Assembly: GCF_014695715.1 (NCBI RefSeq)
Contig: NZ_JACJOT010000008.1
Span: 124,001-188,000, forward strand
DNA: 64,000 bases
Direction of reading: 5' to 3'
From: Microcoleus sp. FACHB-68
Lineage (GTDB): Bacteria; Cyanobacteriota; Cyanobacteriia; Cyanobacteriales; Oscillatoriaceae
Shown here: positions 8,775 to 62,000 of the stretch, in pieces
Layout: each line of letters begins with the position of its first letter
Numbering within the stretch: the first letter of the stretch is position 1
Position numbers and translations under genes: made by a program
The notes under the pieces: model-generated
Databases searched by the model: none
What the model was told of the DNA's origin: nothing
What the model saw: only the letters and a program-made list of their open reading frames with translations

Positions 8775-10826
8775 ATGACAACTCCAAACATTCTCCAATA
8801 CGAATCTAAAATCTGGGCAACCGCCGATCTGCTGCGAGGCTGTGGCATCAAAGAGTCGGAATGGCCATCATATATGATGCCGTTTTTTGCCCTGGTGATG
8901 ATTGAAAGCCGTTTGGTCAGGATGTTTGATCTACTAAAGGCAGAAATTGGTGAAGAGGCGTTAGAGGATATTCCTCAAGAAGATTTAATCGAGCTAATTC
9001 AGGACAGGGGACAGGGCTATAACGTTTATATTTTTGAGAAGAATCAAACTCTAAAGGATATTTGCCACAACGATAAATCCTTTGATATTGATTTTGAGGC
9101 ATACCTACACGGCTTTGATGCGGAAACGAAAGATTTGTTGGGAGTGGATGCTGCCGAGGGGGAGAAGTTTCTTGATATTAAAGGCATCATTGCCAAGCTC
9201 AAAGCGAAAAAGGTGCTGTTGGGCTATACGAAGGAATGGAGTGGCATTGACCTCAAACCCTTTGATAACTCGGCAATTACGACGCTAGAAGAACACATTA
9301 AACGTCGTTGGGCAGACATTTCGGCAGAGACGGCAGGGGAACAGTTCACACCTGACGATGTAATTGGGCTGATTGCTGAGATTATCGCTTCTAAGATTGA
9401 GGACTCGGATCGCCTGTTGAAAATCTATGACTGCACCTGTGGCGGCGGTAATTTGCTCTTTGGGGTGGAAGACCGGATTAAGGCCAAGGTAAAGCGGCTA
9501 ACTCAAACCTTTGGGCAAGACTGGAATGATGCGCTTTACGCCTTAGCCAAGATTGAAAGTCGGTTTCGACTAGATTCTAAGATTGAGCACGGTAACACGC
9601 TCACAGATGACAAGTTTTATAACGATGAATTTGATGTGGTGATTGCCAATCCGCCTTATGGGGTGGACTGGAAAGGCTTTAAGAAAGACATTGAGAATGA
9701 CAAAACTGGGCGGTTTGAGTATCTGCCGTCTATTTCAGATGGCCAATTGCTGTTTATGCAGCATTTGATCTCGAAACTCAATGCCCTAGGTATGGGAGTT
9801 GTGGTTCATAATGGCTCGACGCTGTTTAGTGGTGATGCAGGTTCGGCAGAAAGCAATATTCGGAAATGGATGCTGGATTCGGACATTGTGGAAGCGGTGA
9901 TCCAGTTGCCGACGGATGAGTTTTTTAATACGGGCATTTACACCTATCTCTGGGTACTGAACAAGAATAAACCCGTCAATCGCCGTGATCGCGTGATGTT
10001 GATTAATGCCAGTGAGAAATTTAAGCCGCTGAAAAAGAGCAAGGGATCTAAGCGGAAAGAGGTGGATGAAGCTAGCCGATTGGAGATTGTGGAAACTCTA
10101 GCTCGATTCGTGGATAACGATTATGCACGAGTGTTTGATAAAGAGTTTTTCTATTTCAATAAGCAGGCGATTAGGCTCACGAATGTGGATGAGCAGGGCA
10201 GGACTTTTGCCAGTCGTCTCAAGGAGGGCAAAACCAGTCAGAAGCTGTCGCCGCTGAAGTTGGAAAACGGGGAACGGACGTTAACGGAATTTACGATTAC
10301 GGAGTATGATTCGGAGCGGTTTGGCTCTTTGGCTGAGGTGTATGAGCAAGATATTAAGCCCTTTGTGAGTTCGCTGGACTACAAAGAGCAGCCATTGGTT
10401 GTGACGACGGAAAAGGCGCTGTATAGCTTTGATGCTGACCAGGAAACGCTGATTAAAGAAGGGTTAGGTAAGCGGGAGGCGTTGGGTTGTGGTCAGATTG
10501 TTGTGAAAGCAGCGTTTAAGAAGGGGACGAAAACCCAGCCTGAACGAATAGAAATTACGGTGGAATTAACGCCGGATTATCAGAAGGATTATGAGATTAT
10601 TCCGTTTCATCGAGATGAGGCAGCGAACTGGGCAGAGATCCAGGCGTTTATGGCGAAGTATATTACTAAGCCGTTTGAGTATTTGGAAAATGTGGTGGGA
10701 GTGGAAATTAATTTTAATAAGGCGTTTTATAAGCCTGAGAAATTAAGAAGTGTAGAGGAGATTTTAGGAGAAGTTACCGCTCTTGATGAGGAGTTAAATA
10801 AGGTTGAAAAGGGGCTGGCATTATGA
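8775..10826 (+). CDS. hsdM: Type I restriction-modification system, DNA methyltransferase subunit
   Basis: HsdM transfers a methyl group from SAM to adenine N6 in the sequence chosen by HsdS. The 683-residue protein has motif I as D-C-T-C-G-G-G-N-L-L (from about residue 218) and catalytic motif IV as N-P-P-Y-G (about 293). Its N-terminus, with E-S-K-I-W-A-T-A-D-L-L-R-G, is the helical domain common to N6 methylases. It overlaps the hsdS gene by four bases (ATGA), so translation is coupled. The gene contains no RCCGGY palindrome by my reading, unlike flanking genes, which suggests horizontal acquisition. Confidence 0.95.
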   Translation: MTTPNILQYESKIWATADLLRGCGIKESEWPSYMMPFFALVMIESRLVRMFDLLKAEIGEEALEDIPQEDLIELIQDRGQGYNVYIFEKNQTLKDICHNDKSFDIDFEAYLHGFDAETKDLLGVDAAEGEKFLDIKGIIAKLKAKKVLLGYTKEWSGIDLKPFDNSAITTLEEHIKRRWADISAETAGEQFTPDDVIGLIAEIIASKIEDSDRLLKIYDCTCGGGNLLFGVEDRIKAKVKRLTQTFGQDWNDALYALAKIESRFRLDSKIEHGNTLTDDKFYNDEFDVVIANPPYGVDWKGFKKDIENDKTGRFEYLPSISDGQLLFMQHLISKLNALGMGVVVHNGSTLFSGDAGSAESNIRKWMLDSDIVEAVIQLPTDEFFNTGIYTYLWVLNKNKPVNRRDRVMLINASEKFKPLKKSKGSKRKEVDEASRLEIVETLARFVDNDYARVFDKEFFYFNKQAIRLTNVDEQGRTFASRLKEGKTSQKLSPLKLENGERTLTEFTITEYDSERFGSLAEVYEQDIKPFVSSLDYKEQPLVVTTEKALYSFDADQETLIKEGLGKREALGCGQIVVKAAFKKGTKTQPERIEITVELTPDYQKDYEIIPFHRDEAANWAEIQAFMAKYITKPFEYLENVVGVEINFNKAFYKPEKLRSVEEILGEVTALDEELNKVEKGLAL

Positions 10827-12073
10827 AAATTGAACGTTATCAAGCCTATAAGGATAGTGGGATTGAGTGGATCGGCGAAGTACCTCATCAGTGGAAAATA
10901 ACTCATATAAAGCGAATTTGCAAAAAAGTTACTGACGGCGCACATACCTCACCTGACACATCATCAGAAGATTACCCCTTCTTAACTGTAGTAAATCTAA
11001 AAAATGGAAGTTTGGATTTCGAGAACTGCTTATATACATCTAATTTGGACTATCAAAAATTAGTTCGCAATGGCTGCAATCCAAAATTGTTTGATGTTCT
11101 TTACAGCAAAGATGGAACAATATCTGAATCAGTTGCAATATATGAAGAAAAAGATTTTGTTGTTGGCTCATCGTTTATTATTTTGAGACCAAACAAGAAA
11201 GATATTAATTCAAAATATTTCAGTTACTTGCTCACATCTTCTATCATGAGATTTCAAGCCAGTATTTATATTAAAGGTGCTACTTTACCCAGAATCTCTA
11301 TTTTCAATGTAGCCAAACTATTTTGTATGGTTCCATCTCTCACCGAGCAAAAAACAATTGCCCAATACCTCGACACCAAAACCGGCCAAATAGATCGCAA
11401 AATTGACTTACTCACCCAGAAGGCAGCGCTATACGGCGATCTCAAGCAGTCTCTCATCAATGAAACTGTGACACGGGGGCTTGATAAATCTGTGCCGGTG
11501 AAGGATAGCGGAATTGAGTGGATCGGTGAAGTGCCTGAGCATTGGGTTATTAAGCGTATCAAAGATTTGTCGTTCCTTCAGAGTGGAGACAACATTGTTT
11601 CAGAACAAATAGAAGACACAGGTCAATATCCAGTTTATGGCGGCAATGGTTTGCGAGGCTACTGTTCACAATATACAAACGATGGCGATCATATTCTTAT
11701 AGGTCGCCAAGGAGCCTTGTGCGGCAATATTAATTATGCCTCTGGAAAGTTTTGGGCATCTGAACATGCAGTAGTTGCATACTTAAAGCCTTTCGTCCAC
11801 ATCAAATGGTATGGAGAAATACTTAGGATTATGAATCTTAATCAGTATTCCCTATCTGCTGCTCAACCTGGCTTGGCGGTAGATAGAGTAAAGCGGCTAT
11901 TGCTACCTGTTCCACCTCTTACCGAACAAAAAGCGATCGCCGACTACCTCGACACCAAAACCGCCCAAATTGACCAAATTATTCAAACCATCAACACCCA
12001 AATCGAAAAACTCAAAGAACTGCGTAAAACCCTGATTAACGATGTTGTCACAGGCAAAATAAAGGTAGTCTGA
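10823..12073 (+). CDS. hsdS: Type I restriction-modification system, specificity subunit
   Basis: HsdS recognises a two-part DNA target and joins HsdM and HsdR. The 416-residue protein is an internal duplication: D-S-G-I-E-W-I-G-E-V-P occurs near residues 11 and 229. After each target-recognition domain comes a conserved helix beginning L-T-E-Q-K, then D-T-K-T-x-Q-I-D. Both half-domains look complete, so this is a full bipartite subunit. The TRDs are AT-rich and diverged. It starts inside the hsdM stop and ends 3 bases before hsdR. Confidence 0.95.
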   Translation: MKIERYQAYKDSGIEWIGEVPHQWKITHIKRICKKVTDGAHTSPDTSSEDYPFLTVVNLKNGSLDFENCLYTSNLDYQKLVRNGCNPKLFDVLYSKDGTISESVAIYEEKDFVVGSSFIILRPNKKDINSKYFSYLLTSSIMRFQASIYIKGATLPRISIFNVAKLFCMVPSLTEQKTIAQYLDTKTGQIDRKIDLLTQKAALYGDLKQSLINETVTRGLDKSVPVKDSGIEWIGEVPEHWVIKRIKDLSFLQSGDNIVSEQIEDTGQYPVYGGNGLRGYCSQYTNDGDHILIGRQGALCGNINYASGKFWASEHAVVAYLKPFVHIKWYGEILRIMNLNQYSLSAAQPGLAVDRVKRLLLPVPPLTEQKAIADYLDTKTAQIDQIIQTINTQIEKLKELRKTLINDVVTGKIKVV

Positions 12074-12076
12074 CCT

Positions 12077-15000
12077 ATGAGTGAACTGCACCTGCAAGAC
12101 AAATTCCTCATCCCCTTTTTTCGAGAAAGTTTAGGCTACCAAGAAGTTAAAGCCAACACAATCACCAATTCCCTGATCATCGAGGAAGACTTACAAACCT
12201 TCATCTCCACCACCGAACTCAACGAAAAGCCCTACGAAGCCCTACTCAAAAAATATAGCGGCAACGCCCAACAACTGCTAGCAGATCTAATCGAACTGAT
12301 CCAAGAGCGCATCGCCAGCAGCCGCAACATGGCCCTCTTCATCAATGCCAACAAATCCGTTACCCTGCAAGGCATCAAACTCCACCTATTCTACACCGAC
12401 GACAGCGTAATTCACGACAGCAGCCTCTTTGCCCAAAATATCTTCTCTGTTGTTCAAGAACTGCCCTATAAATACCACTATCAAAGCAAACAAATCTTTT
12501 CCTTCCGTCCTGATCTCTGCCTCTTTGTTAATGGCATTTACCTCGGCTATAGCGAACTAAAATCTAACCTCAGCAACCAAACCGCCCGTAAGAATGGACG
12601 GGGTAAAGTCATCAAAGACTACTTTGATGCTGTCCGAATCTATCACGACACCTTTGATCAAAATCCTCACCTCAGCGACAAAGAAAAAGACTCCTACCGC
12701 AAAGACTTTCTCAAAATCTTTGAAAAAGCCATTCACATCACCACCACCGACATAGCCGAAACCTACGTCATTCGGACGCTCTCTGACTATTTCGACGACA
12801 TCCTCACCACCTGCCGCGAAGGGAAGTTTGATCGCGAAGAGTACGAAAAGAAAGTTGTCAAAGCCTTCAAACCCTATCCACTGCTTAATTCCACCGCTGA
12901 ACAAAAGGAAAAACTCAAAGAACTCTTCATTGCCCACTACGGCAAAAGCTTCATTGAAAAAGAAATCCTCTACTACAACTTTATTGAGCGGGATGTTTAC
13001 GTTGTCAACGGTAAAAAGGAACTCAAAAACGAAATTGGGCAACTAATCTCACCCCGTCCCAAACAAAAATTCGGCACCGATAAAATTCTGGCTAAAATTG
13101 ACGAATTCTTAGAACATGAAGCCGAAGACGACTACTTCATTCACCAGCTAGAACAGCAGCTAGCCCACGTCTCCACCGCCAAACGTCAGGAACTTATCGA
13201 AAAGCGCAAAGCCTACGCTAACAACAAAAACGTCTATTCTCTCCTATTGCAATATGCTGCCGGGTTCGGCAAATCCAACATTATTGGCTGGACAGCTCTA
13301 CAACTCAAAGATCTACGCCGCAACGGTGAATACATTTACGACAAAATTATGATTGTGGTTGATCGCCTGCAACTCCGCAGCCAGATCGACTCGAAAATGC
13401 TGAATATGAACATCGATAACCGGATGTACATTGAGGCACATAACAAAAAAACCTTCCAAGAAGCCCTCCGATCCGACACCCGTTTAGTCATCGTCAACCT
13501 GCAAAAATTTGGGGCTGTGCGAGAAATGCTCGACTCCGACACCCTACAAAAACTCGCCCAACTCCGCATCGTCTTTTTGATCGACGAGATTCACCGCTCC
13601 AACAGTGGCGATCAACACGAAGAAATGGTCAATATCTTTGACGAACTGCAAACCCCCTTTGACTCACAGCAGCAATACAACCAAACCCGCACAAAGAAAA
13701 ACCTGATAGTCGGCTTCACTGCCACCCCCGACGATCACACCCTCGCCCGCTTTGGTGAATTTAGCGGCTATGCCGAAAGCGAAAAACTCTGGGTTCCCTT
13801 CGACTCCTACACCATGAAAGAAGCCATTGAGGACGGCTTTATTCTCAACCCCCTGAAAAATATTGTCCCCGTCGCCTCTAAGATGCTGTTTGACATCCCC
13901 AGCAATGAACTGGAGGGCTTCACCGAGCCAAATTACAAAGATGCCGATAAAAAGCAAATTTATGAAAACCGCGAGCGCATCAACGCCATTGCCCAATATG
14001 TTGCCGATTTGCTGGTGAAAGATGTCTATCGGCAAATCCGAGGCACCGGCAAAGCAATGCTGGCGGTGTATTCGATTAAAGCAGCAATCGCTTACAAACA
14101 AGCTGTAACCCAACATTTCAACGAACTCATCAAACAGCCCAAATACGCCAAATATGCCGGCGCTCCTATCCATATTGTCTACTCCAGCAACCAAGACGAA
14201 CAAAGCGCCACAGGACTAAACGAAGGACTCACCGAAGAAAAAGTCTTAGAAAGCTTTGCCCTCAAGAAAAATGGCTTAATCATCGTGGTAGCCAAATTAC
14301 AAACTGGCTTTGACGAGAAAAAACTGCACACCCTATTTTTAGATAAAGAAATTAAAGGCATTGCCGCGATTCAAGCTATCTCACGGGTAAACCGCACTGC
14401 CAAATACAAAAATGATTGTAAAATCGTTGATTTTTCCTATAACAATGTCAACGTCCAAAATATCAAAGATGCCTTCGAGCATTTTTCGGATGTCGTTGTT
14501 AGTGACTTCGATCCTCACAGTGACAAACGAGTTTTAGAAATTCTGTTTACAGAGCTTAAAAAATCCGATGTTTACGAGCAATTCTTTGAGGTCTTTCTCG
14601 CAATTTTCAACAATAACGCTAAACGCAATCATCCTGAAAGTTGCCTCGACTTAGAAAGCAGCATCGAAAAGTATATTGATGCCAACCCCAAGCGCACTGC
14701 CGGCACCAAAGCTAAAGCTGCTCAGTATTTCACCATCCTCAACCGCATTGAGTATGTGATTAGCCTAGATGAGAAGTACAGCGAACCTAGCTTGCTAGAA
14801 TTCCTGCGTCTGTTCAATACCATTTACAATAGACTACACCGGACTGATGATATTAAAGACGCAATCGAAGTCTATTTTGATAACCAAATCGGCATCATTG
14901 AAGTTGAAACCCAAGAACCAGAGCCAAAGAAAAAGAAACCCACTAAGGTTGCTGAAGGCAAAGAACCTAGCAATACAGCATATCAATTTGATATTCTTGC

Positions 15001-15310
15001 TATCCTCGATGCGCGTAATGAACAAGAAGCTTTAAAAGGAGAACGTATTCAAGAATTTGCCTTAAAAATTAGCGATCTCTTTGAATATGTGCGGAATGCT
15101 GAGGACGGCAAACGTTTGATTATTAAGATTAAATCAAATGTTACAGAAGAGGAAATCTATGAAGACTTTGCCAAAATCTATCGCAAATATAAAGTATTAA
15201 ATCGAAAACAAGTGGGAGATTATTTTTTTAGAGAAATGGAAGATCTGGTTAATAAACTTTGCGATGATTTTGAAGTGACGGTTCGTAATGCTGATCAGCA
15301 AAGTATTTAA
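12077..15310 (+). CDS. hsdR: Type I restriction-modification system, restriction and translocase subunit
   Basis: HsdR is the ATP-driven DNA translocase and nuclease that cuts unmodified DNA. The 1077-residue protein has a PD-(D/E)xK nuclease: D146 (R-P-D-L), then E160-L-K162. The helicase core has a Walker A variant A-A-G-F-G-K-S (about 394), D-E-I-H (about 501) and T-A-T-P. Motif V reads K-L-Q-T-G-F-D-E, and motif VI A-I-S-R-V-N-R. All expected active residues are visible. It is the third gene of a tight M-S-R operon, and its sequence differs from the other HsdR at 27868. Confidence 0.95.
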   Translation: MSELHLQDKFLIPFFRESLGYQEVKANTITNSLIIEEDLQTFISTTELNEKPYEALLKKYSGNAQQLLADLIELIQERIASSRNMALFINANKSVTLQGIKLHLFYTDDSVIHDSSLFAQNIFSVVQELPYKYHYQSKQIFSFRPDLCLFVNGIYLGYSELKSNLSNQTARKNGRGKVIKDYFDAVRIYHDTFDQNPHLSDKEKDSYRKDFLKIFEKAIHITTTDIAETYVIRTLSDYFDDILTTCREGKFDREEYEKKVVKAFKPYPLLNSTAEQKEKLKELFIAHYGKSFIEKEILYYNFIERDVYVVNGKKELKNEIGQLISPRPKQKFGTDKILAKIDEFLEHEAEDDYFIHQLEQQLAHVSTAKRQELIEKRKAYANNKNVYSLLLQYAAGFGKSNIIGWTALQLKDLRRNGEYIYDKIMIVVDRLQLRSQIDSKMLNMNIDNRMYIEAHNKKTFQEALRSDTRLVIVNLQKFGAVREMLDSDTLQKLAQLRIVFLIDEIHRSNSGDQHEEMVNIFDELQTPFDSQQQYNQTRTKKNLIVGFTATPDDHTLARFGEFSGYAESEKLWVPFDSYTMKEAIEDGFILNPLKNIVPVASKMLFDIPSNELEGFTEPNYKDADKKQIYENRERINAIAQYVADLLVKDVYRQIRGTGKAMLAVYSIKAAIAYKQAVTQHFNELIKQPKYAKYAGAPIHIVYSSNQDEQSATGLNEGLTEEKVLESFALKKNGLIIVVAKLQTGFDEKKLHTLFLDKEIKGIAAIQAISRVNRTAKYKNDCKIVDFSYNNVNVQNIKDAFEHFSDVVVSDFDPHSDKRVLEILFTELKKSDVYEQFFEVFLAIFNNNAKRNHPESCLDLESSIEKYIDANPKRTAGTKAKAAQYFTILNRIEYVISLDEKYSEPSLLEFLRLFNTIYNRLHRTDDIKDAIEVYFDNQIGIIEVETQEPEPKKKKPTKVAEGKEPSNTAYQFDILAILDARNEQEALKGERIQEFALKISDLFEYVRNAEDGKRLIIKIKSNVTEEEIYEDFAKIYRKYKVLNRKQVGDYFFREMEDLVNKLCDDFEVTVRNADQQSI

Positions 15311-15541: not shown

Positions 15542-16582
15542 CTATTGATAGATTTTGCCATTGGGTAAGGTGGCTCCCTTCAGCTTGATTCCCTGACGAT
15601 TTGCGTCTGCTACATTGGCATTTCGCAAGTTTGCTCTCGTCAAATCTGCCTCAGACAAATTGGTGCCAATTAGATGTGCGCCACTCAAATTCGCGCCGGC
15701 AAGATTAGCACCGCTCAAGTTCGCTTGAATCAAGTAAGCGCCACTGAGATTTGCTAAGCTCAAGCCGGCACCACTCAAGTTCGCGCCGGTTAGCAGTTTT
15801 CCGCTTAAATCAGCACCACTCAATTCTGCCCCACTCAGATTAACCCCACTCAAATTAGCCTGCTTTAAACAAGTATTTCTTAAGTCTGTCTTGCTCAAGT
15901 TTGTCTTGCTCAAATTAGCACGTCCTAAGGTTGCTTCACTTAAATCGGCTTCACTCAGATTCGCCCCATTTAAGTGCGCGTTGTTTAGATTCGCTGAGCT
16001 TAGGTTCGCGCCTGCCAAGTTTGCCTGAGATAAATCAGCCTCGCTCAGGTTCGTTTGCCTTAGCTTCGCCCCCCGGAGGTTTGCCTTGCTTAGGTTAGCC
16101 CCACTCAAGTCTGCCTTGCTCAAACTAGCTTGGGTGAGATTGGCTTCCCTCAAATCGGCTTTGCTCAGATTGGTGCCAATCAAGTAGGTGAGACTGAGCT
16201 GACTTCCGCTGAGATTGGCTCCGCTGAGGTTAGCGCCGCTCACATCTGCGCTTGTCAGGATCGCTCCAGTCAAGTTGGCTCCGCTCAAGTCTGCCCAATT
16301 TAAGTGTGCGCCGCTCAGATCCGCTCCGCTCAAGTCCGCTCCACTCAGATTTGCCCCACTGAGACTTGCTCCATGCAGGTTAGCTTTAATGAGTTTGGCT
16401 CCCCTCAAATCGGCTTTGCTCAAACCGGCTCCACTGAGATACGCCCCACTCAAATCTGTCTCACTGAGATCCGCTTTACTTAAGCTTGCCCGACTAAAAT
16501 CTCTCGCCCCTGATGCATAGCGTTGCAGCAGTTCATCGCGGGTAAAGCTCGGTCTAGGCCCAGTCGTCACGTTAGCTATCAT
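15542..16582 (-). CDS. Pentapeptide repeat protein
   Basis: The 346-residue product is almost wholly A(D/N)LSx pentapeptides, which form a right-handed quadrilateral beta-helix. A lead motif [13 protein letters not shown] precedes the repeats, and a short tail containing G-K-I-Y-Q closes it. There is no signal peptide or second domain. A paralogue with the same lead motif lies at 61143-61982. Function cannot be inferred; members range from DNA mimics to scaffold proteins. It lies just downstream of, and opposite to, the first restriction operon, but has the RCCGGY sites of the host genome. Confidence 0.92.
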
Positions 16583-27867: not shown

Positions 27868-30270
27868 ATGTCTCGTAACGAAGACCTGACTCGCAAGGAA
27901 CTAATTGATCCCGTTTTAGACTCTCTAGGTTGGAAAGCCAACCTGATCAGACGTGAAAAAACTCCTGGTGGAGTCGATATTATTGACGGTAAACCTCGTA
28001 AGCGTAGTGAGCGAGTTGATTATTTGTTGTGTTTGCCTGCCACGAGAGGCAATCAACCTTTGCCTGTCGCGCTGATTGAAGCCAAGGCAGAAAATAAATT
28101 ACCAAGTTTAGGGATACAGCAGGCACTAGATTACCAAAAACGATTTAATGTGCCCTTTGTTTTTTCCACTAATGGGCATTTATATGCAACATGGGGTGAA
28201 GATACGCGACAAATTGAAACGAATTTGGATATAGCTAATTTTCCAACGCCTGAAGATTTACGCAGCCGATGGGAAGCTATTAAAGGGTTTAAGTTGGATA
28301 CGAATGCTGCCCGTGCTTTATTTATATCTCCGAAGGGGGGAGCTAGAGCTTTATATTATTTCCAAGATGCAGCGATTAGGTCGGCTTTAGAAAAAATTGC
28401 CAGAAGAGGTGATAAGTGGAATAGAATTTTAATTCAACTGGCTACGGGTACAGGTAAAACTATTTTAGCTACTCAATTACTGCATAAATTGGCAGAATCA
28501 GAGCAGTTGACTAGAGCTTTATTTGTAGTAGATCGGGACGAGCTTCGCAGCCAAGCTCTAGGCAAACTAATGGCAATTTTTGAGGATAACGCTAGAGTTG
28601 TCACGACTGATAAACCTAATACAAATGCTCGGATTCTTGTAGCCAGCTACCAAACTTTATTAGGCAAAGAAGAAAATGAACCGCTGTTTTGGAATCAATA
28701 TTTTAAAGATTTACCATTGAGCCATATTATTATTGATGAGTGCCATCGCTCGGCTTGGGGTTCGTGGAGTATAATTCTTGAAGATCACTCCGAGGCAGTA
28801 CATATTGGTTTAACAGCAACACCTCGCATAATTATCGGCGGTGAAGGAGAAACAGCTAGACAGGACGATGAAGAAATTACAGCACATAATTTAGAATATT
28901 TCGGTCAACCTGTTTATGAATATGGGATTACTGAAGGTCAAGCAGACGGCTATTTAGCGGCTTGTGAAGTTATTCGCCGTGCAGTAGATTTAGATCAAAT
29001 AGAAATTACCCGCGAAGATATTGAGATGCGCTCGGTTATCGATCCATATACAGGTAAAACTGTAAATCCTGGGGATATTGCACCGAGTTATAGTGTGAAA
29101 AGTTACGATCGCTTGCTGCTTTTACCAGATAGAGTAACCGCGATGAGCGAGGATATTTTTCAACATTTACTAGATACAGGAACACCGTATCAAAAAACAA
29201 TTATTTTTTGTGCTAGTGATGCTCATGCTTCAAATGTTGCAATTGAACTGAATAATATTTACTCTCGCTGGTGTCAGCAGAGGCAAATTGAATCGTGTGA
29301 ATGGTTTGCTTTTATGTGTACTGGCAATCCAGACTTAAGACCGCCTGCAAAAAAGCTAATTCCTGAGCTTAGAGATAGTAAACAAAGCCATTATATTGCG
29401 ACAACGGTTGATTTACTGTCAACTGGGGTGGATCTTCCTAATTTAGAAAATGTAATTTTCTTTCGTTACTTGGAATCACCTATTTTGTTTTATCAAATTA
29501 TCGGAAGGGGAACCAGAATCGGCGATCCATCAGGATCGAAGGTGATGTTTAGAATTTATGATTATACAAATGCTACGCGCCTATTCGGTCAACCTTTTGA
29601 GAGTCGCAATAAACCGACAACAGGAGGGGATGAAGAAGGTGAAGGGAATCAGCCAGAAGGAGATAGCAGCAATAAGGACAGACCAACACGGCGAAAAGCT
29701 AATCTGATTCAGGTTAAAGGGTTTACGGTTAGTGTGGCAGGTGAAGGTAAATCAATTTTATGTAACGAAGATGGGACGGATGTTTTAGTACCAGTGGAAG
29801 AGTATAAGCAACGGGTAGCGGCTAGGATACTGGCTGAAGCGGAGAATTTAGATTCGTTACGGAAGGTTTGGGTTGTTACCCCCAGGCGGCGTAAGTTGTT
29901 GCAAAATCTGCCAAAAGGGGAATTATCCCTGCGATTAATTCGAGAGTTGCAGGATCAGAGGGATTGCGATTTATTTGATGTGTTGGCAGATTTAGTGTAT
30001 GGTATTGCTGCTAAGAGTCGTGCTGAAAGAACTGCGGCTTTTAGCTATAAAAATCGTAATTGGTTGCGGGAATTACCGGAACCAACTGCTAATGTTTTAA
30101 GTGCGATCACGAGACAATTTGAGAAAGGTGGTATTGAGGAACTCGAAAACACAACGATTTATGATGAATATGAGGTAAGAAATGCCGGAGGTTTTGAAGC
30201 GTTAATCGGTTTAGATACTCCGCCAGAACAGTTAATTCAAGAAGTAAAATTGAGGCTTTTGAGTGCATGA
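27868..30270 (+). CDS. hsdR: Type I restriction enzyme R subunit (EcoEI-like)
   Basis: This 800-residue translocase-nuclease is shorter than, and unlike, the HsdR at 12077. An N-terminal nuclease has D51, E71 and K73 (I-E-A-K-A-E-N). Walker A reads A-T-G-T-G-K-T at about 192-198, D-E-C-H lies near 290, and T-A-T-P follows. Motif V reads L-L-S-T-G-V-D-L-P, and motif VI I-I-G-R-G-T-R-I-G. The acidic linker near residue 590 is normal for a hinge. It overlaps hsdS by four bases. The gene is AT-rich and has no RCCGGY sites that I can see. Confidence 0.94.
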   Translation: MSRNEDLTRKELIDPVLDSLGWKANLIRREKTPGGVDIIDGKPRKRSERVDYLLCLPATRGNQPLPVALIEAKAENKLPSLGIQQALDYQKRFNVPFVFSTNGHLYATWGEDTRQIETNLDIANFPTPEDLRSRWEAIKGFKLDTNAARALFISPKGGARALYYFQDAAIRSALEKIARRGDKWNRILIQLATGTGKTILATQLLHKLAESEQLTRALFVVDRDELRSQALGKLMAIFEDNARVVTTDKPNTNARILVASYQTLLGKEENEPLFWNQYFKDLPLSHIIIDECHRSAWGSWSIILEDHSEAVHIGLTATPRIIIGGEGETARQDDEEITAHNLEYFGQPVYEYGITEGQADGYLAACEVIRRAVDLDQIEITREDIEMRSVIDPYTGKTVNPGDIAPSYSVKSYDRLLLLPDRVTAMSEDIFQHLLDTGTPYQKTIIFCASDAHASNVAIELNNIYSRWCQQRQIESCEWFAFMCTGNPDLRPPAKKLIPELRDSKQSHYIATTVDLLSTGVDLPNLENVIFFRYLESPILFYQIIGRGTRIGDPSGSKVMFRIYDYTNATRLFGQPFESRNKPTTGGDEEGEGNQPEGDSSNKDRPTRRKANLIQVKGFTVSVAGEGKSILCNEDGTDVLVPVEEYKQRVAARILAEAENLDSLRKVWVVTPRRRKLLQNLPKGELSLRLIRELQDQRDCDLFDVLADLVYGIAAKSRAERTAAFSYKNRNWLRELPEPTANVLSAITRQFEKGGIEELENTTIYDEYEVRNAGGFEALIGLDTPPEQLIQEVKLRLLSA

Positions 30271-31562
30271 TGGAATTGAAAAAACTTCACAAAAGTTGGA
30301 ACTTGGTGAAACTAGAGGCATTATGTGAAAAAGATACCGGCACTAGAGATCCTAGCTTGGAATCAGACAAATCTTTTATCTACGTTGATATATCCAGCGT
30401 TGATAATGTAACTAAACGCATTATTAATTCTCAAAGTTTACTAGGAAAAGATGCACCAAGTCGAGCTCGTAAAGTAATTCATACAAATGATGTTATTGTT
30501 TCGACTACTAGACCGAATCTAAATGCAGTTGCATTAGTGCCGCCTGATTTAAATGAGCAAATATGCAGCACAGGTTTTTGTGTACTGCGTGCTAACAGTG
30601 ATTTAGATCCCAACTATCTATTTGCTTTTGTTCAGAGTACAAGGTTTGTAGATAGTTTGACTAATCTAGTATCTGGCGCACTATATCCAGCAGTTAATGA
30701 TGAACAAGTTCGTACGCAACTGATTCCTTTACCCCCCCTCTTGTCAGAACAGAAAGCGCTCGCATCTCGTTTTAAGCGTCAAATGGAAGAAACAGAGCGA
30801 ATGCGGCGAATCGCAGAACGTCAATTAGAAGCAGCTAAGGCAATACGGGATTCTATACTTCGTGAAGCATTTACTGATTTAGAAATACAAGAAATTCCCA
30901 TAGTTACGATTGATGAAGTTACATCGTTAGTTATTGATGGCCCTCATGCTACACCTACTTATGTAAAGCAAGGAATACCTTTTGTTACTGTACAAAATAT
31001 TCGAAATAGAAAGTTATCTTTTGACAACCTCCAATATATTTCGCCTCAAGACCATGAAGAGTTTACCCGTCGTGGAAAAGCAGAAATTGGTGATATCTTA
31101 ATGACAAAAGATGGAACTTTAGGTATCCCTTGTTTAGTGGATGATGCCCGCGAGTTTAGTTTCTTTGTAAGTGTTGCTTTAATTAAGCCAATAAGAGATC
31201 GGATAGACAGCGAATATTTTTTTTACGCTCTTGATAGCCCCTTGGTTCAAAGTCGCATTGATGAACAGTCAGCAGGCGCAGGTCTTAAGCATATTGTTTT
31301 AGAAGAGATAAAAGCGCTAGAAATCCCTCTACCAGAGACTAAAGAAGATCAAATTGAATTCGCCCAAAGCCTCAGATGCCGTATAGAAAAATTAGCTCCG
31401 ATTATTGCTACTGCTGAAAAACAATTAGAAGCAATCAATGCCTTACCCAAAGCATACCTACGCGAAGTCTTTGGCATATTTGAGCCACCGGAACTAGACG
31501 AACGGCCAGATATAGATGACGAGGCTGAAGAATGGGAGGAAGAAGATAAGCAGGAAGATTAA
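30267..31562 (+). CDS. hsdS: Type I restriction enzyme specificity subunit
   Basis: The 431-residue protein has two target-recognition domains. Each is closed by a long helix, the first R-F-K-R-Q-M-E-E-T-E-R-M, the second A-T-A-E-K-Q-L-E-A-I-N. The second TRD contains D-G-P-H-A-T-P-T-Y and S-A-G-A-G-L-K-H-I, both common in HsdS. The C-terminus is strongly acidic (about 20 residues of Asp/Glu). Both halves seem intact. It overlaps the preceding hsdR and is 78 bases before hsdM. Confidence 0.93.
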   Translation: MMELKKLHKSWNLVKLEALCEKDTGTRDPSLESDKSFIYVDISSVDNVTKRIINSQSLLGKDAPSRARKVIHTNDVIVSTTRPNLNAVALVPPDLNEQICSTGFCVLRANSDLDPNYLFAFVQSTRFVDSLTNLVSGALYPAVNDEQVRTQLIPLPPLLSEQKALASRFKRQMEETERMRRIAERQLEAAKAIRDSILREAFTDLEIQEIPIVTIDEVTSLVIDGPHATPTYVKQGIPFVTVQNIRNRKLSFDNLQYISPQDHEEFTRRGKAEIGDILMTKDGTLGIPCLVDDAREFSFFVSVALIKPIRDRIDSEYFFYALDSPLVQSRIDEQSAGAGLKHIVLEEIKALEIPLPETKEDQIEFAQSLRCRIEKLAPIIATAEKQLEAINALPKAYLREVFGIFEPPELDERPDIDDEAEEWEEEDKQED

Positions 31563-31640
31563 AAGAAAAGGAGACGCGGTCAGCGCAATCGCCCTGTAAT
31601 CATAAAATTTTGACAATTTGAACTAAAAGGTGAAACAAAT

Positions 31641-33410
31641 ATGGCAAAAAATAAAAAATCAACTAATGCTAAGGGGCGTGTTATTACAACCCAGGCCCAA
31701 ATGGATAAAGCGATTTGGAGTATCTGCAATCTTTTACGCCGTGACAAGTGCAAAGGCGCTCGGCTTTATGTACCTGAACTGACCTGGATGCTATTTCTGA
31801 AAGCCCTAGATGTCGCTGAACAAAAAGAGAAAATAAAAGCAGTAACGCTCGGAACAGAATTTTCTGCCAGTATTAAAGAGCCTTACCGTTGGGGAGATTG
31901 GGTGGTTGGTGATAAACGTAAAGAATTACAAACAGGGGCAATAGGTTCAGTGCTGAAATTTGTTAACGAAGAACTATTCCCCTATTTAAAAAGCTTAGAT
32001 GACATTGATAAAAATCCCACCCCAACTGGGCAACAGCGAGTTATCGCTGAGATATTCCGCAACAAAGAAAAAACGATTATTTCTAGTGAAACAAACCTCA
32101 TGGATGTACTCGATGAGGTAGAAAAATTGTCACAAGCCGAATTGAGCGATAAACATATATTTCCGATCTCCCAAGCATTAGAGGGATTATTGCTTCGGAT
32201 GGGGGACAGAAAAAATGACGGTGGACAATTTTTTACTCCTCGCGAAATCATCCGTGTCATTATTAAGGCAGTAAATCCTCAAATCGGTAAAACAGTTTAC
32301 GATCCTGCTTGTGGTACAGGTGGATTTTTAATTGAAGCCTTCAAGTATATAATGGCTCAAAAGCCCACGGGTACGCAGATTAAAACTCTGAAAACTGAAA
32401 CATTTTGGGGAAGAGAAGATGCCCCAGAAGCTATCCCTATTTGTTTAGCAAACATGGTATTACACGGCATAGAATTACCCCGAATTTGGCACGGCAACAC
32501 TTTAACGGGAATTGCTACCTACGGAGAGTTATTTGAGGGCGCACCTGCTCAGTTTGATTATATCTTCACTAATCCCCCTTTCGGCAGTAAAGAAGGCGAA
32601 GCAGCACAGCAAAACTTTAAATATCAGTGCAATAAAGCCCAAGTTCTTTTCATGCAGCATATTATAGATGGTTTAATTGACCATCTCAAAGATGGTGGGA
32701 CTTGCGGCATGGTAATTGACGAAGGGCTATTATTTCACACCAAAACTGATGCGTTTACCCAAACCAAACGCAAACTGCTAAGTGATTGTAATTTATGGTG
32801 TATTGTCAGTTTACCTCCTGGTGTCTTTGTGAACGCAGGAGCCAATGTCAAGACAGATTTACTATTTTTTACCAAGGGTAAACAAACCGATAAAATATGG
32901 TATTACGATATAACCATGACAGCAACTTTAGAAGACCGTAAAGTTGGTAAAAAAACACCACTTTTAGCAGAACATTTCGATGATTTCTTTGCCCGATTAG
33001 CCTTAGATCCAAACGATCCAGGGCGTGAAAGTGAGCGAAGTTGGACAATAGACTTTACTAAAAGAAAGCGGGAAGCGAAAGCTAAATCTGATACCCTCAA
33101 GCAGGAAGCAGAGGAGTTTAATCAAAAAATTAAGCAACATCGGGAAACTCTTAAAGCAATGAAAAAAGCTGGACAAGAGAATACCCAGCAGTATCAAGAC
33201 CTTGACGAAACAATTAAAGAACTAGACAAAGAAGTAAGAGAATTACTAGCTAAAGCCAAAGCGATCCATGATGCAGTCTATAACATTAAGGCTACTAATC
33301 CTAATGCACCAGATCGGACGGATAAGCGAACACCGGAAGAACTTATCGCAATTATTGAGGAAAGCCAAAAGGAAATCATGGCAGGCTTAGAGGCGCTACG
33401 AATGATTTAA
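31641..33410 (+). CDS. hsdM: Type I restriction-modification system, DNA methyltransferase subunit
   Basis: The 589-residue N6-adenine methylase has a helical N-domain, a G-D-R-K-N-D-G-G-Q-F-F-T-P-R-E motif, motif I D-P-A-C-G-T-G-G-F (about 221-229) and catalytic N-P-P-F-G (about 311). A Lys/Glu-rich coiled coil at about 475-550 presumably contacts HsdS. It is last in an R-S-M operon. The four residues of motif IV differ from the first system's HsdM (N-P-P-Y), and the two proteins belong to different type I branches. Confidence 0.95.
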   Translation: MAKNKKSTNAKGRVITTQAQMDKAIWSICNLLRRDKCKGARLYVPELTWMLFLKALDVAEQKEKIKAVTLGTEFSASIKEPYRWGDWVVGDKRKELQTGAIGSVLKFVNEELFPYLKSLDDIDKNPTPTGQQRVIAEIFRNKEKTIISSETNLMDVLDEVEKLSQAELSDKHIFPISQALEGLLLRMGDRKNDGGQFFTPREIIRVIIKAVNPQIGKTVYDPACGTGGFLIEAFKYIMAQKPTGTQIKTLKTETFWGREDAPEAIPICLANMVLHGIELPRIWHGNTLTGIATYGELFEGAPAQFDYIFTNPPFGSKEGEAAQQNFKYQCNKAQVLFMQHIIDGLIDHLKDGGTCGMVIDEGLLFHTKTDAFTQTKRKLLSDCNLWCIVSLPPGVFVNAGANVKTDLLFFTKGKQTDKIWYYDITMTATLEDRKVGKKTPLLAEHFDDFFARLALDPNDPGRESERSWTIDFTKRKREAKAKSDTLKQEAEEFNQKIKQHRETLKAMKKAGQENTQQYQDLDETIKELDKEVRELLAKAKAIHDAVYNIKATNPNAPDRTDKRTPEELIAIIEESQKEIMAGLEALRMI

Positions 33411-41943: not shown

Positions 41944-43134
41944 TTAATGATGATGGTGGTGATGAGCGCCATCGTGAGCGTGGTCGTGATGGTCGTGATG
42001 CTCGTGGTGCTCGTGATGCTCGTGAGTGTGAAGCGCCGGCAACGCCATCTGGGGATTGACAGATAACGCTTGTTCTGAGAGAAGCGCTTCAATTTGGGGA
42101 ACCGCCCACTCAGCCGCCATCTTGAGAAACTCAGGACTATCGTTCACGCAAGCCATTTGCACATAAGTCACATCTGGATGCCGGCGTTGCAGCGAGTGAA
42201 TGATGTGATCCACATCTAGCAGCGTTTCGTGATTTTCCGTTGCAAAGCCAATCGGCATCATCACAATTGCTTTGGCACCCAAATCAATCAAATTGCCGGC
42301 AGCTTGATCTGCATTCGGCTGAGTCCACTCAATCAACGGCGTGTCATGGTTGAGCCAGCCCACAGAAATTAACGGATAGCGATACATCAGCTTTTCGCGC
42401 ACCAGTTCGTACATCGCCTCACTTTCAGCGATCCCAGAGGTAAATCCCTTCGCCTTGTGGGGACAGCCGTGGTTCATCAAGATGATGCCAATTTGAGAAG
42501 GCAGATATTTATCAGCCAATTCAGCGGCAATTTTCTCCTCAACCAACTGAGCGAGCAAATCGATATAAGCCGGCTCATTATAGAAAGAGGGAATATAGCG
42601 CATTCCCTTCACCCAGTGTTCATCCCCATCCGCAAGTTCAGCCAAGGCTTTGTTGACTTGCTCGACGGCAATACCGCTGGTGAAGATAGAATCCACCACT
42701 AACAGCGGGTAAATCAGCAGCTTGTCGAAACCTTCCGCCTTTATTTCTGCCAGAACTTGAGACGGCAGAAAAGGGGCGCAGAAGTTAAACGCTTTAAACA
42801 CACGTACCGACTCACCCCAGCGGTGTTGCAGTTCGTGTTCAATACCGGCACGTTGCCGCTCAAAAATCGCATTATGCGGTGAAATAAAATCGTGATGAGT
42901 GTGTCCCCACTCGTGCCGGTCAAAAATCGCCAGCAGTTTTGCTAAGGGCGGGTAGATCCAAGTCGGAACCGGCGCAAATTTAGCCGTGAGGAGATTGAGC
43001 GCCTGTTCGTTGTAGTTGGCGAAATCTTCGTAACTTTCAACCTCGCCATAGCCCATTAGCAAGACGGCAACCCGATCATTACCGGCAGCCGAGTCAGGGG
43101 GGTGTGCGTGCAGTTTTTCAGGGGTGGCAACCAC
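41944..43134 (-). CDS. Ferrochelatase-family protein with polyhistidine tail
   Basis: The 396-residue class II chelatase-like protein starts with V-A-V-L-L-M-G-Y-G-E. It keeps the two-domain fold pattern, with N-H-G-C-P-H and P-I-G-F-A-T-E-N-H-E-T near the metal site. It lacks the C-terminal chlorophyll-binding helix of canonical cyanobacterial HemH. Instead the last 29 residues contain 18 His, broken by Glu/Asp, and end in six His. Family members insert iron into porphyrin; His-rich tails in the related CbiX/CfbA chelatases store cobalt or nickel. I regard it as a paralogue of HemH with uncertain metal. An exact role is inference. Confidence 0.85.
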   Translation of the reverse strand: MVATPEKLHAHPPDSAAGNDRVAVLLMGYGEVESYEDFANYNEQALNLLTAKFAPVPTWIYPPLAKLLAIFDRHEWGHTHHDFISPHNAIFERQRAGIEHELQHRWGESVRVFKAFNFCAPFLPSQVLAEIKAEGFDKLLIYPLLVVDSIFTSGIAVEQVNKALAELADGDEHWVKGMRYIPSFYNEPAYIDLLAQLVEEKIAAELADKYLPSQIGIILMNHGCPHKAKGFTSGIAESEAMYELVREKLMYRYPLISVGWLNHDTPLIEWTQPNADQAAGNLIDLGAKAIVMMPIGFATENHETLLDVDHIIHSLQRRHPDVTYVQMACVNDSPEFLKMAAEWAVPQIEALLSEQALSVNPQMALPALHTHEHHEHHEHHDHHDHAHDGAHHHHHH

Positions 43135-43287
43135 GTCAGGTTCCTCCAGAGGATTAGTAATGAGGAGTACAGCGCTGGGGCATGGCGTTGTGGTGCTCTT
43201 CCAAATTGCCAGCGCTGCACGTCCATTCTCTTAGGTTAGCATCCCCTCCAGGGGCATAGGATAAAAGACTTCACAAATCACCTTAAC

Positions 43288-45396
43288 TTAGGACGCTGTG
43301 GCAACGCGATCCCGTCCCTCTTTCTTTGCGCGATACAGCGCCGCATCAGCAGCGCGAACCACCGTCGAAGCATTCACTCCGTGTAAAGGGGAAGTTGCCA
43401 CCCCCAATGAGAGCGTAATCATTCCCAAAGGCTGCCGGTGGTACTGAACGTGCAAGTGCTTCACACCCTCGCGTAACTGCTCGGCTCGTTGCTGCGTTAT
43501 CTGCAAAGACGCTTCAGGCAAAATCAGCGTGAACTCTTCACCTCCATAACGGCAGGCAACATCTGAACCTCGGATCGAACCTTGCAAAAATACGGCCAAT
43601 TCTTGCAGTAGAGTATCCCCGGCTTCATGGCCGAATGTATCGTTGAAGTGCTTAAAGTGGTCAATATCAAGCATGATGATGCCCACCGAGTGTTTTTGGC
43701 GTTCAGCTCGGTGTAATTCGCGTTCTAGAGATTCTTCGAGATAGCGCCGGTTAAACAAACCCGTCAGGGGATCGCGAATGCTTTGGTTTTTGAGCGTTTC
43801 CCGCAGCCTTAAGTTAGCCAATGACAAGGCAACGTGTTCGGCAACCGTCACTGCCAACTGTTGTTTAGCTTCTGTAAATTTCCCCCGTTCTGATCCACTC
43901 AAAAACAACAGCCCCAAGTTTTCTCCCTGTGCTGTCATCGGGACGCAAAAACATTCCGCCGGCAAGGGTTGGGTAAAGTGCTGGCAGGCTAAACCACTAT
44001 GGGTATTTTCAAATAGATGCGCTCGGCCACATCGAATGGCCCAGCAATCATTAGTTGAGAATACCAACTGGCTGGAAAGCTCCGATCCCCAAGTGGTTGC
44101 CGCCTCCACCATATTTCCAGAAGCGCTGATCGCATAAATGCCGCCTGAGTGGTGGGGGAACAGTTTTTGGATTAATCGCGGGATCACCGTGTACGCTTCT
44201 TCTAAGGTGAGACACGCTTGGAGTGAATCAGTGATGCGGCTGAGCGAGCGAATTTCAAAGTTAGCCTGTGAGAGTTCTTCGACAAGCTGTTCAACTCTGG
44301 ACGTGTGGCGCTGGAATCTCAGCAGATAAATCGCAAAACAGCCCGTGAGGATCAGTCCGCTGGCAAGCGCCATCCACGCAATCCAAGGTCTGTGTTTTAA
44401 GAGGTATTGAGGGGTTGGGACGATTAGAAGCGACCACTGCCGGCTGCCCACATTCAACAGGCGAGTGCAAGTGCTTGGGTTGGGACAGACCAACTTGCTG
44501 TTCATTTTGAGCCGATCTTTGCCGGTGGGTTCTGTTAGAGCGCGATTCGTGCTTGATTCATAAAAAGCAAGGAAGTTTTCTGTAGCGCCTGGAGTTTCGT
44601 CGTAAAACGCAATATTGAGATCCTCTAAGTCCAGTCCTGTGATGGAGGTTTTAACAAAATCAGCTAGCAAAAAAATACTGATGACAAACCCTTTCAAGTT
44701 CTGCCGGCGTGTCAGAAGTGTGTTGTGGGGAACGCGGTTTTGATAGATGGGCAAGGCGACTAAGAAGCCCGGTTGATTGCTCAGTAAATCGAGCCGGCTG
44801 GTGGCGATCGCGTTGCCGGTGTCCCGTGCTTGTTCCAAAGCTGATCGGCGTCTAATCTCTGAGCCATAGTCGAAACCAACTCCCAAGTTGTAGTTTCCCA
44901 CCGGCTCAATGTAAGCAGCCGGGAAATATTCTGCTCTCGCAGCCGCCCTGACCATTGTCCCCTGACTTTGCTGTTCTGTAATCTGGAAAGAGGCGTCACC
45001 TTGCGCCTTACGGACTGTCTCGAAAGCTGCTCGCTGGGCATTTGTGACACGGGGAATCCACCCCAGCGCTTCAATACTGCGATGGCGAGACAGCATCTTC
45101 GTGCTTAACTGGCTGAACTCCTGCCGTGTTACCTCTCTAGGGGAAACGGTATAGAAGTCACCAATGGCTAGCAGCGCTTCAAAATTTCTGTCGATATTTT
45201 TCTGCAATGAACTCGCTATGTTGTCGGTTCTTTTTTGGAGTTGAAGGTTCAGTCCTTCCTGTTGCCAGTGCCGCACGACAAAAAACGCTACGGCTGATAA
45301 TCCCACCCCAGCAAAGATCATGAAGCCAGCGGCGAGGTAACGACGCACAAATAAATCCCTGATGGCTACATTTAGCGATTTGCCCTTGGCACTCAT
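43288..45396 (-). CDS. CHASE-GAF-GGDEF diguanylate cyclase
   Basis: The 702-residue membrane sensor should make cyclic di-GMP. It has a membrane helix near 19-40 and a periplasmic CHASE domain (about 80-300, with A-L-G-W-I-P-R-V). A second membrane helix lies at about 336-358, a GAF domain at about 395-530, then GGDEF. The active loop is G-G-E-E-F at about 614-618, and the product-inhibition site R-G-S-D lies just upstream. Both are intact, so a regulated, active cyclase is likely. No EAL phosphodiesterase is adjacent. Confidence 0.95.
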   Translation of the reverse strand: MSAKGKSLNVAIRDLFVRRYLAAGFMIFAGVGLSAVAFFVVRHWQQEGLNLQLQKRTDNIASSLQKNIDRNFEALLAIGDFYTVSPREVTRQEFSQLSTKMLSRHRSIEALGWIPRVTNAQRAAFETVRKAQGDASFQITEQQSQGTMVRAAARAEYFPAAYIEPVGNYNLGVGFDYGSEIRRRSALEQARDTGNAIATSRLDLLSNQPGFLVALPIYQNRVPHNTLLTRRQNLKGFVISIFLLADFVKTSITGLDLEDLNIAFYDETPGATENFLAFYESSTNRALTEPTGKDRLKMNSKLVCPNPSTCTRLLNVGSRQWSLLIVPTPQYLLKHRPWIAWMALASGLILTGCFAIYLLRFQRHTSRVEQLVEELSQANFEIRSLSRITDSLQACLTLEEAYTVIPRLIQKLFPHHSGGIYAISASGNMVEAATTWGSELSSQLVFSTNDCWAIRCGRAHLFENTHSGLACQHFTQPLPAECFCVPMTAQGENLGLLFLSGSERGKFTEAKQQLAVTVAEHVALSLANLRLRETLKNQSIRDPLTGLFNRRYLEESLERELHRAERQKHSVGIIMLDIDHFKHFNDTFGHEAGDTLLQELAVFLQGSIRGSDVACRYGGEEFTLILPEASLQITQQRAEQLREGVKHLHVQYHRQPLGMITLSLGVATSPLHGVNASTVVRAADAALYRAKKEGRDRVATAS

Positions 45397-45996: not shown

Positions 45997-46608
45997 GTGA
46001 GTTTAATTATTTGTCCGGGCATTCATCACCCACGGTTGACAGAAACCTTTATTAAAGAGTTACTGGATCAACTTCAGGAACGGGGCTCGGCTGCTTGTCA
46101 ATCCGAGACATTACTGGTTTTCCCAACTCAGGACTACCCAGCTTATTGTGCCCCTGAAATTTTCCAGTTTTTGCAAGCGCATCTGGGCAGTGGCGCAACC
46201 CTGAGACAGCCGGAAGCGTCGTTAATCTTTATCAGCTTTAGTGCCGGCGTTGTCGGTGCAATTGGGGCGGCGTGGGCATGGCAGCAAATCGGCGGGAGGG
46301 TAAATGCGTTTATCGCCTTGGATGGTTGGGGGGTGCCGCTGTATGGGGATTTTCCCATCTACCGGCTCAGTCACGATTACTTCACCCACTGGAGTTCTGC
46401 TTTACTGGGAGGCGGGGATGAGAGTTTCTATGCCTCACCGCCGGTGGAACATTTAGACTTGTGGCGCTCACCGCAAACTGTTCAAGGATGGTGGTTTCGC
46501 AAAACCGGCTTCGGGTTTGAACCGCCGATCCCCACAAATGCCGCCCTGTTTTTAGCTACCCTTATAGAGCGTCACGGTGTACTCCTCCCACCTGTTTGTG
46601 AGGAATAA
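45997..46608 (+). CDS. Alpha/beta hydrolase-fold-like protein, unknown function
   Basis: The 203-residue protein starts at GTG 45997, which overlaps an upstream TGA. The early L-I-I-C-P-G-I-H-H-P-R-L-T strand resembles an H-x-P oxyanion turn. S-F-S-A-G (about 89-93) is a weak nucleophile elbow with Ser at the centre. A catalytic Asp/His pair cannot be assigned with confidence. It lies 39 bases before the MFS gene on the same strand, so the two may be co-expressed. Confidence 0.6.
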   Translation: MSLIICPGIHHPRLTETFIKELLDQLQERGSAACQSETLLVFPTQDYPAYCAPEIFQFLQAHLGSGATLRQPEASLIFISFSAGVVGAIGAAWAWQQIGGRVNAFIALDGWGVPLYGDFPIYRLSHDYFTHWSSALLGGGDESFYASPPVEHLDLWRSPQTVQGWWFRKTGFGFEPPIPTNAALFLATLIERHGVLLPPVCEE

Positions 46609-61142: not shown

Positions 61143-61982
61143 CTATTCGTGGGTTGTCCCATCCGGCATAATCGCTCCTCTGAGATCGGCATCACGCAAA
61201 TTAACCCGAACCAGATTAGTGTCAATCAAGATAGCATCCCGCAAATTTGCGCCGGTGAGGTTTGACCAACTCAGTTTAGCCCGATACAGCGTCGCCCCAG
61301 TCAGATTGACTTCCCGTAAAGTTGACCAACTTACATTGGTTCCGCGCAGTTGAGCCTTACTCATATTGGCTCCCGCTAAGTTAGATCCACTCAGCTTGGC
61401 TTTGCTCAAATTTGCCCGACTCAAGTCTGCTCCTGTCAGGTTCGCCCCATTCAAAATCGCATTCGTTAAGTTGACTCCTTCTAGGATAGAGTTAATCAGA
61501 ATCGCAATTGTGAGGTTGACCCCTTCTAAGTTGGCGCGGCTCAGATCGGCTTCAGTCAGGATAGCCCGACTCAAATTGGCGTCGCTGAGATTGGCTGATT
61601 TAAGATTGGCTTTCGTCAGTTTTACCTCACTGGCAATCACCTCACTGAGTGTTGCTCCCTGGAGATTGACCTCACTCAAATTTGCCCGACTCAAGTTTGT
61701 CTCACTTAAATTTGCTTTTTCTAAATTGGCTCGGCTCAGATCGGCTCCGATTAAGTTCATCTCACTTAAAATAGCCCCACTCAAGTTCGCACCCTGAAGT
61801 TTAACTTCCCGCAAATTGGCTCGGCTGAGCTTAGCTTCTTGCAAATACGCCCCACTGAGATCTGCATCCCGTAAGTTAACTCCACTCAAATCTACTCCCT
61901 GTAGGTGGCACCCGCTCAGTTTTAGATCGCGAAAATCTCGTTCACCGGCTGCATATCGCTTTAGAAGTTCGTTGGCATCCAT
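61143..61982 (-). CDS. Pentapeptide repeat protein
   Basis: About 279 residues of almost unbroken A(N/D)L pentapeptides follow a lead motif E-L-L-K-R-Y-A-A-G-E-R-D-F. This is nearly identical to the lead of the protein at 15542-16582. The start could be ATG 61982 or GTG 62000; neither has a clear ribosome binding site. The tail ends in G-T-T-H-E. No other domain. Confidence 0.9.
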   Translation of the reverse strand: MDANELLKRYAAGERDFRDLKLSGCHLQGVDLSGVNLRDADLSGAYLQEAKLSRANLREVKLQGANLSGAILSEMNLIGADLSRANLEKANLSETNLSRANLSEVNLQGATLSEVIASEVKLTKANLKSANLSDANLSRAILTEADLSRANLEGVNLTIAILINSILEGVNLTNAILNGANLTGADLSRANLSKAKLSGSNLAGANMSKAQLRGTNVSWSTLREVNLTGATLYRAKLSWSNLTGANLRDAILIDTNLVRVNLRDADLRGAIMPDGTTHE

Positions 61983-62000
61983 GTCCTGTATCTCACACAC

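Follow-up and report, generated by a model that had tools for sequence, protein, structure and literature searches.

A histidine-tailed ferrochelatase-family paralogue of cyanobacteria with a putative InrS-type operator

A ferrochelatase-family gene of Microcoleus sp. FACHB-68, whose product ends in a histidine-rich tail, is a paralogue of the canonical HemH and appears to be controlled through an upstream element that resembles an InrS operator. The gene lies in a stretch of 64,000 nucleotides, which we call the window. The reading that we favour, with somewhat better than even confidence, is that of an InrS-repressed, nickel-inducible chelatase-family protein that would capture excess Ni(II), perhaps also cobalt or copper, by its tail. 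Judging from sequence comparisons, InrS-type control is very likely; a role in handling surplus nickel, cobalt or copper is fairly probable, and between active metal insertion and a pure sink the balance is about even. NrsD-like exporters look rare (4 of 386 genomes). If the protein is a usual target of InrS, this would explain the role of InrS in many cyanobacteria, and a large, probably misnamed protein family would gain a testable nickel-handling role. As a caution, a second cyanobacterial 'ferrochelatase' should not be annotated as haem biosynthesis.

The earlier note, written from the letters of the window, had described a ferrochelatase-family ORF with 18 histidines among its last 29 residues, and this was confirmed by recounting the final residues (LHTHEHHEHHEHHDHHDHAHDGAHHHHHH) and by a score of 135 bits against Pfam Ferrochelatase (PF00762; cut-off 27). 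Besides this score, the full fold places the protein in the ferrochelatase superfamily: the AF2 model (mean pLDDT 74.5, pTM 0.73) is fitted best by human ferrochelatase (1hrk; Z 29.6, 3.2 Å over 324 residues, VIA-align), with SirB (Z 18.8) and CbiK (Z 18.5) below the ferrochelatases. By score the protein falls outside the HemH equivalog (NCBIfam TIGR00109), reaching 86.6 bits where at least 124.6 are needed, but the catalytic His and Glu are both present. Against the NCBIfam sirohydrochlorin nickelochelatase profile it gives 10.5 bits versus 120. The features are listed in Table 1.

Table 1. Position of the chelatase gene, its main residues and the neighbouring elements in the window
Feature	Position	Strand	Basis or remark
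His-tailed ferrochelatase-family paralogue	41944..43134	-	396 aa, GTG start; ORF and profile searches
C-terminal tail, residues 368-396	41947..42033	-	18 His in 29; pLDDT <50 for residues 363-396
Glu303 (catalytic Glu of HemH by alignment)	42226..42228	-	Alignment including CpfC
His222 (catalytic His of ferrochelatases by alignment)	42469..42471	-	Alignment including CpfC
Internal His cluster HEWGHTHH, residues 74-81	42892..42915	-	H74, H78 and H80 fixed in 110 orthologues
Start codon	43132-43134	-	GTG
Proposed InrS-type operator TATCCTATGCCCCTGGAGGGGATGCTAACCTA	43232..43263	-	Upstream conservation, single genome site
CHASE-GAF-GGDEF gene	43288-45396		Between the chelatase gene and ORF 45997-46608

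His222, which we take to be the equivalent of Bs His183 and human His263, is invariant together with Glu303 over 42 sequences, the tail-less third paralogue described below included. Also fixed among the 110 orthologues, next to the three histidines of the internal cluster, are H87, H263, C119, C224 and D148; H80 is present in the third paralogue as well. A His/Glu pair is what HemH employs (PMC7689651). In the alignment the HemH stretches GGGSPLRRI and SRVGPVEW correspond to DFISPHNAI and NHDTPLIEW, and the motifs of the porphyrin pocket differ from HemH while the catalytic pair is kept.

The tail is probably disordered, given the low confidence of the model there. At least six histidines occur in the last 45 residues of all 110 aligned orthologues (the window protein plus 109, some duplicate strains among them), and 108 of the 110 have HHH within the last 12 residues. 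Tail length and sequence drift, from a plain His run to mixtures of His, Asp, Gly and Glu. Because the His-rich end is found throughout, it is a family trait and more than chance. The sequence of the His-tailed protein contains no CAB (chlorophyll-binding) helix. The absence of the helix that standard HemH carries, claimed before, is therefore borne out, and the other HemH of the genome does have one. A non-ATG start is common to 108 of the 110 orthologues (GTG in 103 and TTG in 5, aligned to the start in the window); weak start codons conserved in this way may hold translation of the chelatase down.

In its own genome (6.53 Mb, 19 contigs) PF00762 matches, apart from this gene, only a canonical HemH (L001), at 408 bits; that protein scores 427.7 bits against TIGR00109 and ends in a CAB helix with EVWNGR. 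The second, canonical hemH that the earlier note proposed to look for is thus found elsewhere in the genome, and its absence, which would have told against the note's proposal, does not apply. With the canonical HemH as the enzyme of haem synthesis in the same genome, the His-tailed protein ranks as a paralogue. That part of the proposal stands; the InrS-operator-like element upstream lends independent support to its other part, in which the paralogue may serve another metal or act as a metal buffer.

A near full-length relative (at least 69% identity) is present in 99 of the 186 Cyanobacteriia genomes in our sample of 386 genomes of the phylum, and all 99 carriers have at least one further match to the same query, counted whether HemH or another relative. 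The remaining 87 genomes are without an intact copy; scored among the negatives are one genome with a broken copy (G066, at L123:1790-3144) and one with the third paralogue only (G091). Family f26, with small genomes, which we guess to be the marine picocyanobacteria, has the paralogue in none of its 57 members. G183 and G268 contain fragments, and G147 several matches (all three are genomes of 2.8-3.1 Mb); the PF02583 match of G147 is interrupted by three stops. The best 80 of at least 317 matches include orthologues in named genomes of Oscillatoria, Nostoc, Calothrix and Moorena.

In a tree of 38 rows the His-tailed clade and the third paralogue group together with 100/100 support, in a bootstrap that had not settled, and none of the 21 HemH rows (from cyanobacteria, proteobacteria, a haloarchaeon, a lactobacillus and a member of Chloroflexota) falls inside. 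As far as this tree can be trusted, the His-tailed proteins are a divergent clade apart from HemH, the deep placing of which is unsure because the branches are long.

The third paralogue shows 47-51% identity and has no His tail. A ZIP-like transporter gene is found at all five of its loci (L118-L122, one on a Nostoc plasmid): adjacent in three, at about 3 kb in one and about 8 kb in one. At the two loci tested with the ZIP Pfam profile (cut-off 35.1) the scores are 51.5 bits (L119) and 32.5 bits (L120). By eye, the five neighbourhoods consist of variable stress genes, with genes resembling RND pumps and P-type ATPases in places. No InrS-type element was seen at any of the five. The third paralogue suggests that the chelatase core can function without a tail, which counts against our favoured explanation.

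Upstream of the orthologues a C-tract/G-tract pseudopalindrome is shared, and in the window its 26-bp core ends 103 bp ahead of the chelatase start codon. The own genome of 6.5 Mb contains one such site (up to 3 mismatches). In family f6 the Nostoc form of the element likewise occurs as a single site in 14 of 14 genomes, each within about 120 bp of the paralogue, against 0 in reversed controls. At 76 of the 79 named loci with more than 150 bp upstream the element scores above the control maximum, though these loci helped to train the model. CsoR operators are described as G-tract pseudopalindromes, for example ATACCCCTGGTGGGTAT (PMC3902906), and the FrmR operator as a C6 tract between T/A-rich repeats (PMC5016687). 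Our element resembles these operators of the CsoR family and looks like an InrS operator. A simple scan found neither a terminator nor a plain sigma-70 promoter at the element, and Rfam gave no match in nine chelatase loci. Loose palindrome patterns were unhelpful for defining the element. Next to the own InrS gene one match was found versus 1.75 expected.

In the window the element stayed with the chelatase gene even though the GGDEF gene occupies the position held elsewhere by an ORF without Pfam match (direct neighbour at 53 of 112 loci); relatives of ORF 45997-46608 adjoin the chelatase gene in many other genomes. Among these 112 loci, three of which represent the own genome, the recurrent neighbours are the ORF without Pfam match (71), an MFS gene (60) and an FMN reductase gene (49), in every case on the strand opposite to the chelatase gene. 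FtsH (43 loci) is on the same strand, usually beyond the reductase gene. These arrangements gave no ground for proposing an operon. The MFS neighbour in the window was not accepted as an exporter; it has 23% identity to the NrsD-like protein over 247 columns. Elsewhere in the window, inspection of the ORF translations by eye showed two sets of genes resembling type I restriction-modification systems (8775-15310 and 27868-33410) and long proteins resembling pentapeptide-repeat proteins (15542-16582 and 61143-62000).

InrS is a model nickel sensor, and nrsD is its known export target. The own genome encodes one CsoR/RcnR-family (PF02583) protein, of InrS type: its best PDB match is InrS 5FMN (155 bits, residues 39-132), the ligand positions are kept, and it has the Cys/His/Cys set and a His-rich N-terminus. 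This set does not single out carriers of the paralogue, being present in all 32 PF02583 rows whether or not from carriers, and it suits Cu(I) too, both points against the favoured reading. Most of the 17 carrier rows have the His-rich N-terminus; three have 2-4 His. As described in PMC4235346 and PMC4182526, Ni(II) releases InrS from DNA and the response to copper and zinc is transient; InrS acts at the nik operon as well (PMC7055735), which we count as a point against. About 5 kb from the own InrS gene lies an ORF (L126:11197-11853) that resembles the nrsC-like ORF of genome G076 discussed below (shared GGDPYxRALMRTISASESN).

Regulators of this family occur in 107 of the 186 Cyanobacteriia genomes: 90 have both paralogue and PF02583, 9 the paralogue only, 17 PF02583 only and 70 neither. 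Leaving out family f26, the counts become 90, 9, 17 and 13 (Fisher p 6.5e-5). Of the 90 genomes that have both, 61 were examined upstream of the paralogue, as were ten without PF02583 (the 9 plus G066, where the copy is broken). With a strict threshold of 11.3 bits, which exceeds all controls, the element was detected in 49 of 61 genomes with the regulator versus 0 of 10 without; at the loose threshold of 5.1 bits these counts are 56 of 61 and 1 of 10. We also give counts at 11.3 because the loose threshold is below the control maximum (11.2). For genomes outside the training set the strict counts are 20 of 31 versus 0 of 10. Against the link, 12 of the 61 lack the element at the strict and 5 at the loose threshold, and the PF02583-less G354 has an element-like site of 9.4 bits. 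The rows are moreover not independent, since the regulator was lost in few lineages: of the ten PF02583-less genomes, five belong to family f2, three to genus g22 and two to g9. In g22, three genomes with intact PF02583 (G253, G312, G357) keep a TATCCC left arm and, scoring 6.1-8.9, fall under the strict threshold, the three PF02583-less ones (G095, G097, G235) have TATCGC, and the arm reads TATGCC in G237, whose regulator is split into two pieces over two contigs. The left-arm change appears to track the state of the regulator, which is suggestive only; TATGCC is found in the window's own site too.

We also searched the element consensus in the 17 genomes with PF02583 but no intact paralogue. 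The totals (seven matches in four genomes versus three in the reversed control) hardly exceed the controls, and only the position of the site in G076, a Synechocystis-like genome, is telling. There the single genome match (up to 3 mismatches) lies in the apparent nrsC-nrsD intergenic region, these names being assigned from the published order nrsBACD; the order is CzcA/CusA-type pump, nrsC-like ORF, element, transposase-like ORF and nrsD-like MFS gene, with a response-regulator-like gene, divergent, further on. The site scores 26.7 bits; the runner-up within 15 kb reaches 8.0, and the highest-scoring of 1420 shuffles 10.9. Its orientation is opposite to nrsD, which is acceptable for a pseudopalindrome, and the InrS N-terminus of this genome matches 5FMN. 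According to PMC4284471, nrsD has a promoter of its own under InrS, located between the final two ORFs of the nrsBACD cluster; likeness to the nrsD operator is judged here by the position of the site. In G076 the transposase-like ORF (L268:6278-7588) separates the element from the nrsD-like gene and has probably cut the exporter off from its promoter. Counting against the operator reading, G093, with an InrS N-terminus like 5FMN, gave no nrsD-like match at E 1e-40 and has its only element match beside no recognised metal gene, and G014 has no match to the element pattern. None of the four genomes with an NrsD-like protein (E up to 1e-40, with a shortened copy as query) has the His-tailed paralogue; with so small a number, the probability of this exclusion arising by chance is about 0.05.

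Taken together, these results support operator control well. In the mechanism that we infer, InrS would bind the C-tract/G-tract pseudopalindrome and repress the gene at normal nickel. A rise in cytosolic Ni(II), and perhaps in Co or Cu(I), would release InrS from the DNA, and the chelatase paralogue would be made. The flexible poly-His tail would then take up metal and hand it to, or hold it beside, the chelatase core, where the His/Glu pair is kept and the porphyrin pocket seems remodelled with extra His; there the metal would be retained or go into a tetrapyrrole. The His-tailed protein, in place of the NrsD exporter, would be among the main targets of InrS in most cyanobacteria that have this sensor. 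A surplus-nickel role is the most plausible on account of the InrS-type operator, the chelatase fold and the added His tail.

The fixed catalytic pair favours chemistry, whereas the variable tail favours capture. Hpn-type His-rich proteins buffer Ni(II), and a pure nickel sink or metallochaperone, with the core as a scaffold and the tail and internal His buffering Ni(II), is possible though we doubt it: a tail that varies in sequence yet remains His-rich and the operator class would fit, but the invariance of His222 and Glu303 even in the tail-less third paralogue and the preserved full fold speak against it. Rather unlikely is a nickel-induced chelatase for a tetrapyrrole other than sirohydrochlorin, which would load Ni(II) onto protoporphyrin or onto a ring derived from chlorophyll; nickel would be stored or neutralised as an inert pigment. 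Such an enzyme could account for natural nickel chlorins whose source is missing, among them tunichlorin, known from a tunicate that harbours a cyanobacterial symbiont (PMC8074062).

A stress-time backup ferrochelatase, which would insert iron when nickel or cobalt inhibits HemH, or remove wrong metals, with the tail shielding the site against the metal that induces the gene, is improbable. It would account for the HemH-type pair, and mismetalation of protoporphyrin with cobalt is documented in E. coli (PMC7689651), but the remodelled pocket motifs, the hemH score below cut-off, the long branch and the many Cyanobacteriia without an intact copy argue otherwise. We see very little chance for a CbiX-like cobalt chelatase in cobalamin or siroheme-type chelation: the match to Pfam CbiX (28.6 bits, cut-off 22) would fit, though canonical HemH passes this cut-off too (22.3), and two double-domain CbiX ORFs elsewhere in the genome make cobalamin chelation less likely; nor did Rfam indicate a cobalamin riboswitch in the nine loci searched, and no cobalamin gene was recognised by eye among 40 neighbour clusters. 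Least credible is an ordinary second HemH with a tail of neutral low-complexity drift. PMC8529089 does treat such proteins as ferrochelatases, but a tail in every aligned orthologue, the unique operator-like element and the separate clade oppose this.

The chelatase fold and the His-rich ends were already known. The legend of Figure 3B in PMC8529089 (2021) labels 'Cyanobacterial histidine rich C-termini', and that paper calls the CAB-less His-rich subset 'not previously identified or studied'. These cyanobacterial, CAB-less ferrochelatases with a His-rich end are very probably the same proteins; they are treated there as a ferrochelatase subset, with neither a regulator nor co-occurrence with HemH discussed in the parts available. 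The consulted parts of the open PMC literature likewise contain neither the pairing with a further chelatase match in all 99 carriers nor the unique element nor the InrS link.

In comparison with HemH (TIGR00109, PF00762), the His-tailed protein shares the fold over about 320 residues and the catalytic His and Glu, and differs by its sub-cut-off equivalog score, the replacement of GGGSPL and RVGPVEW, and a His tail in place of the CAB helix; it occurs in addition to HemH. The class II chelatases CbiX, SirB and CbiK have a related fold (Z 15.7-18.8, lower than ferrochelatases), and the His-tailed protein gives a weak Pfam CbiX match; they are characterised by a sirohydrochlorin substrate and a His/His pair (PMC7689651). 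NrsD, the Synechocystis nickel exporter, is proposed to share the operator type and also has a His-rich C-terminus (PMC4284471; also seen in the G091 copy), but it is a membrane MFS exporter of unrelated fold and is found only in genomes without the paralogue.
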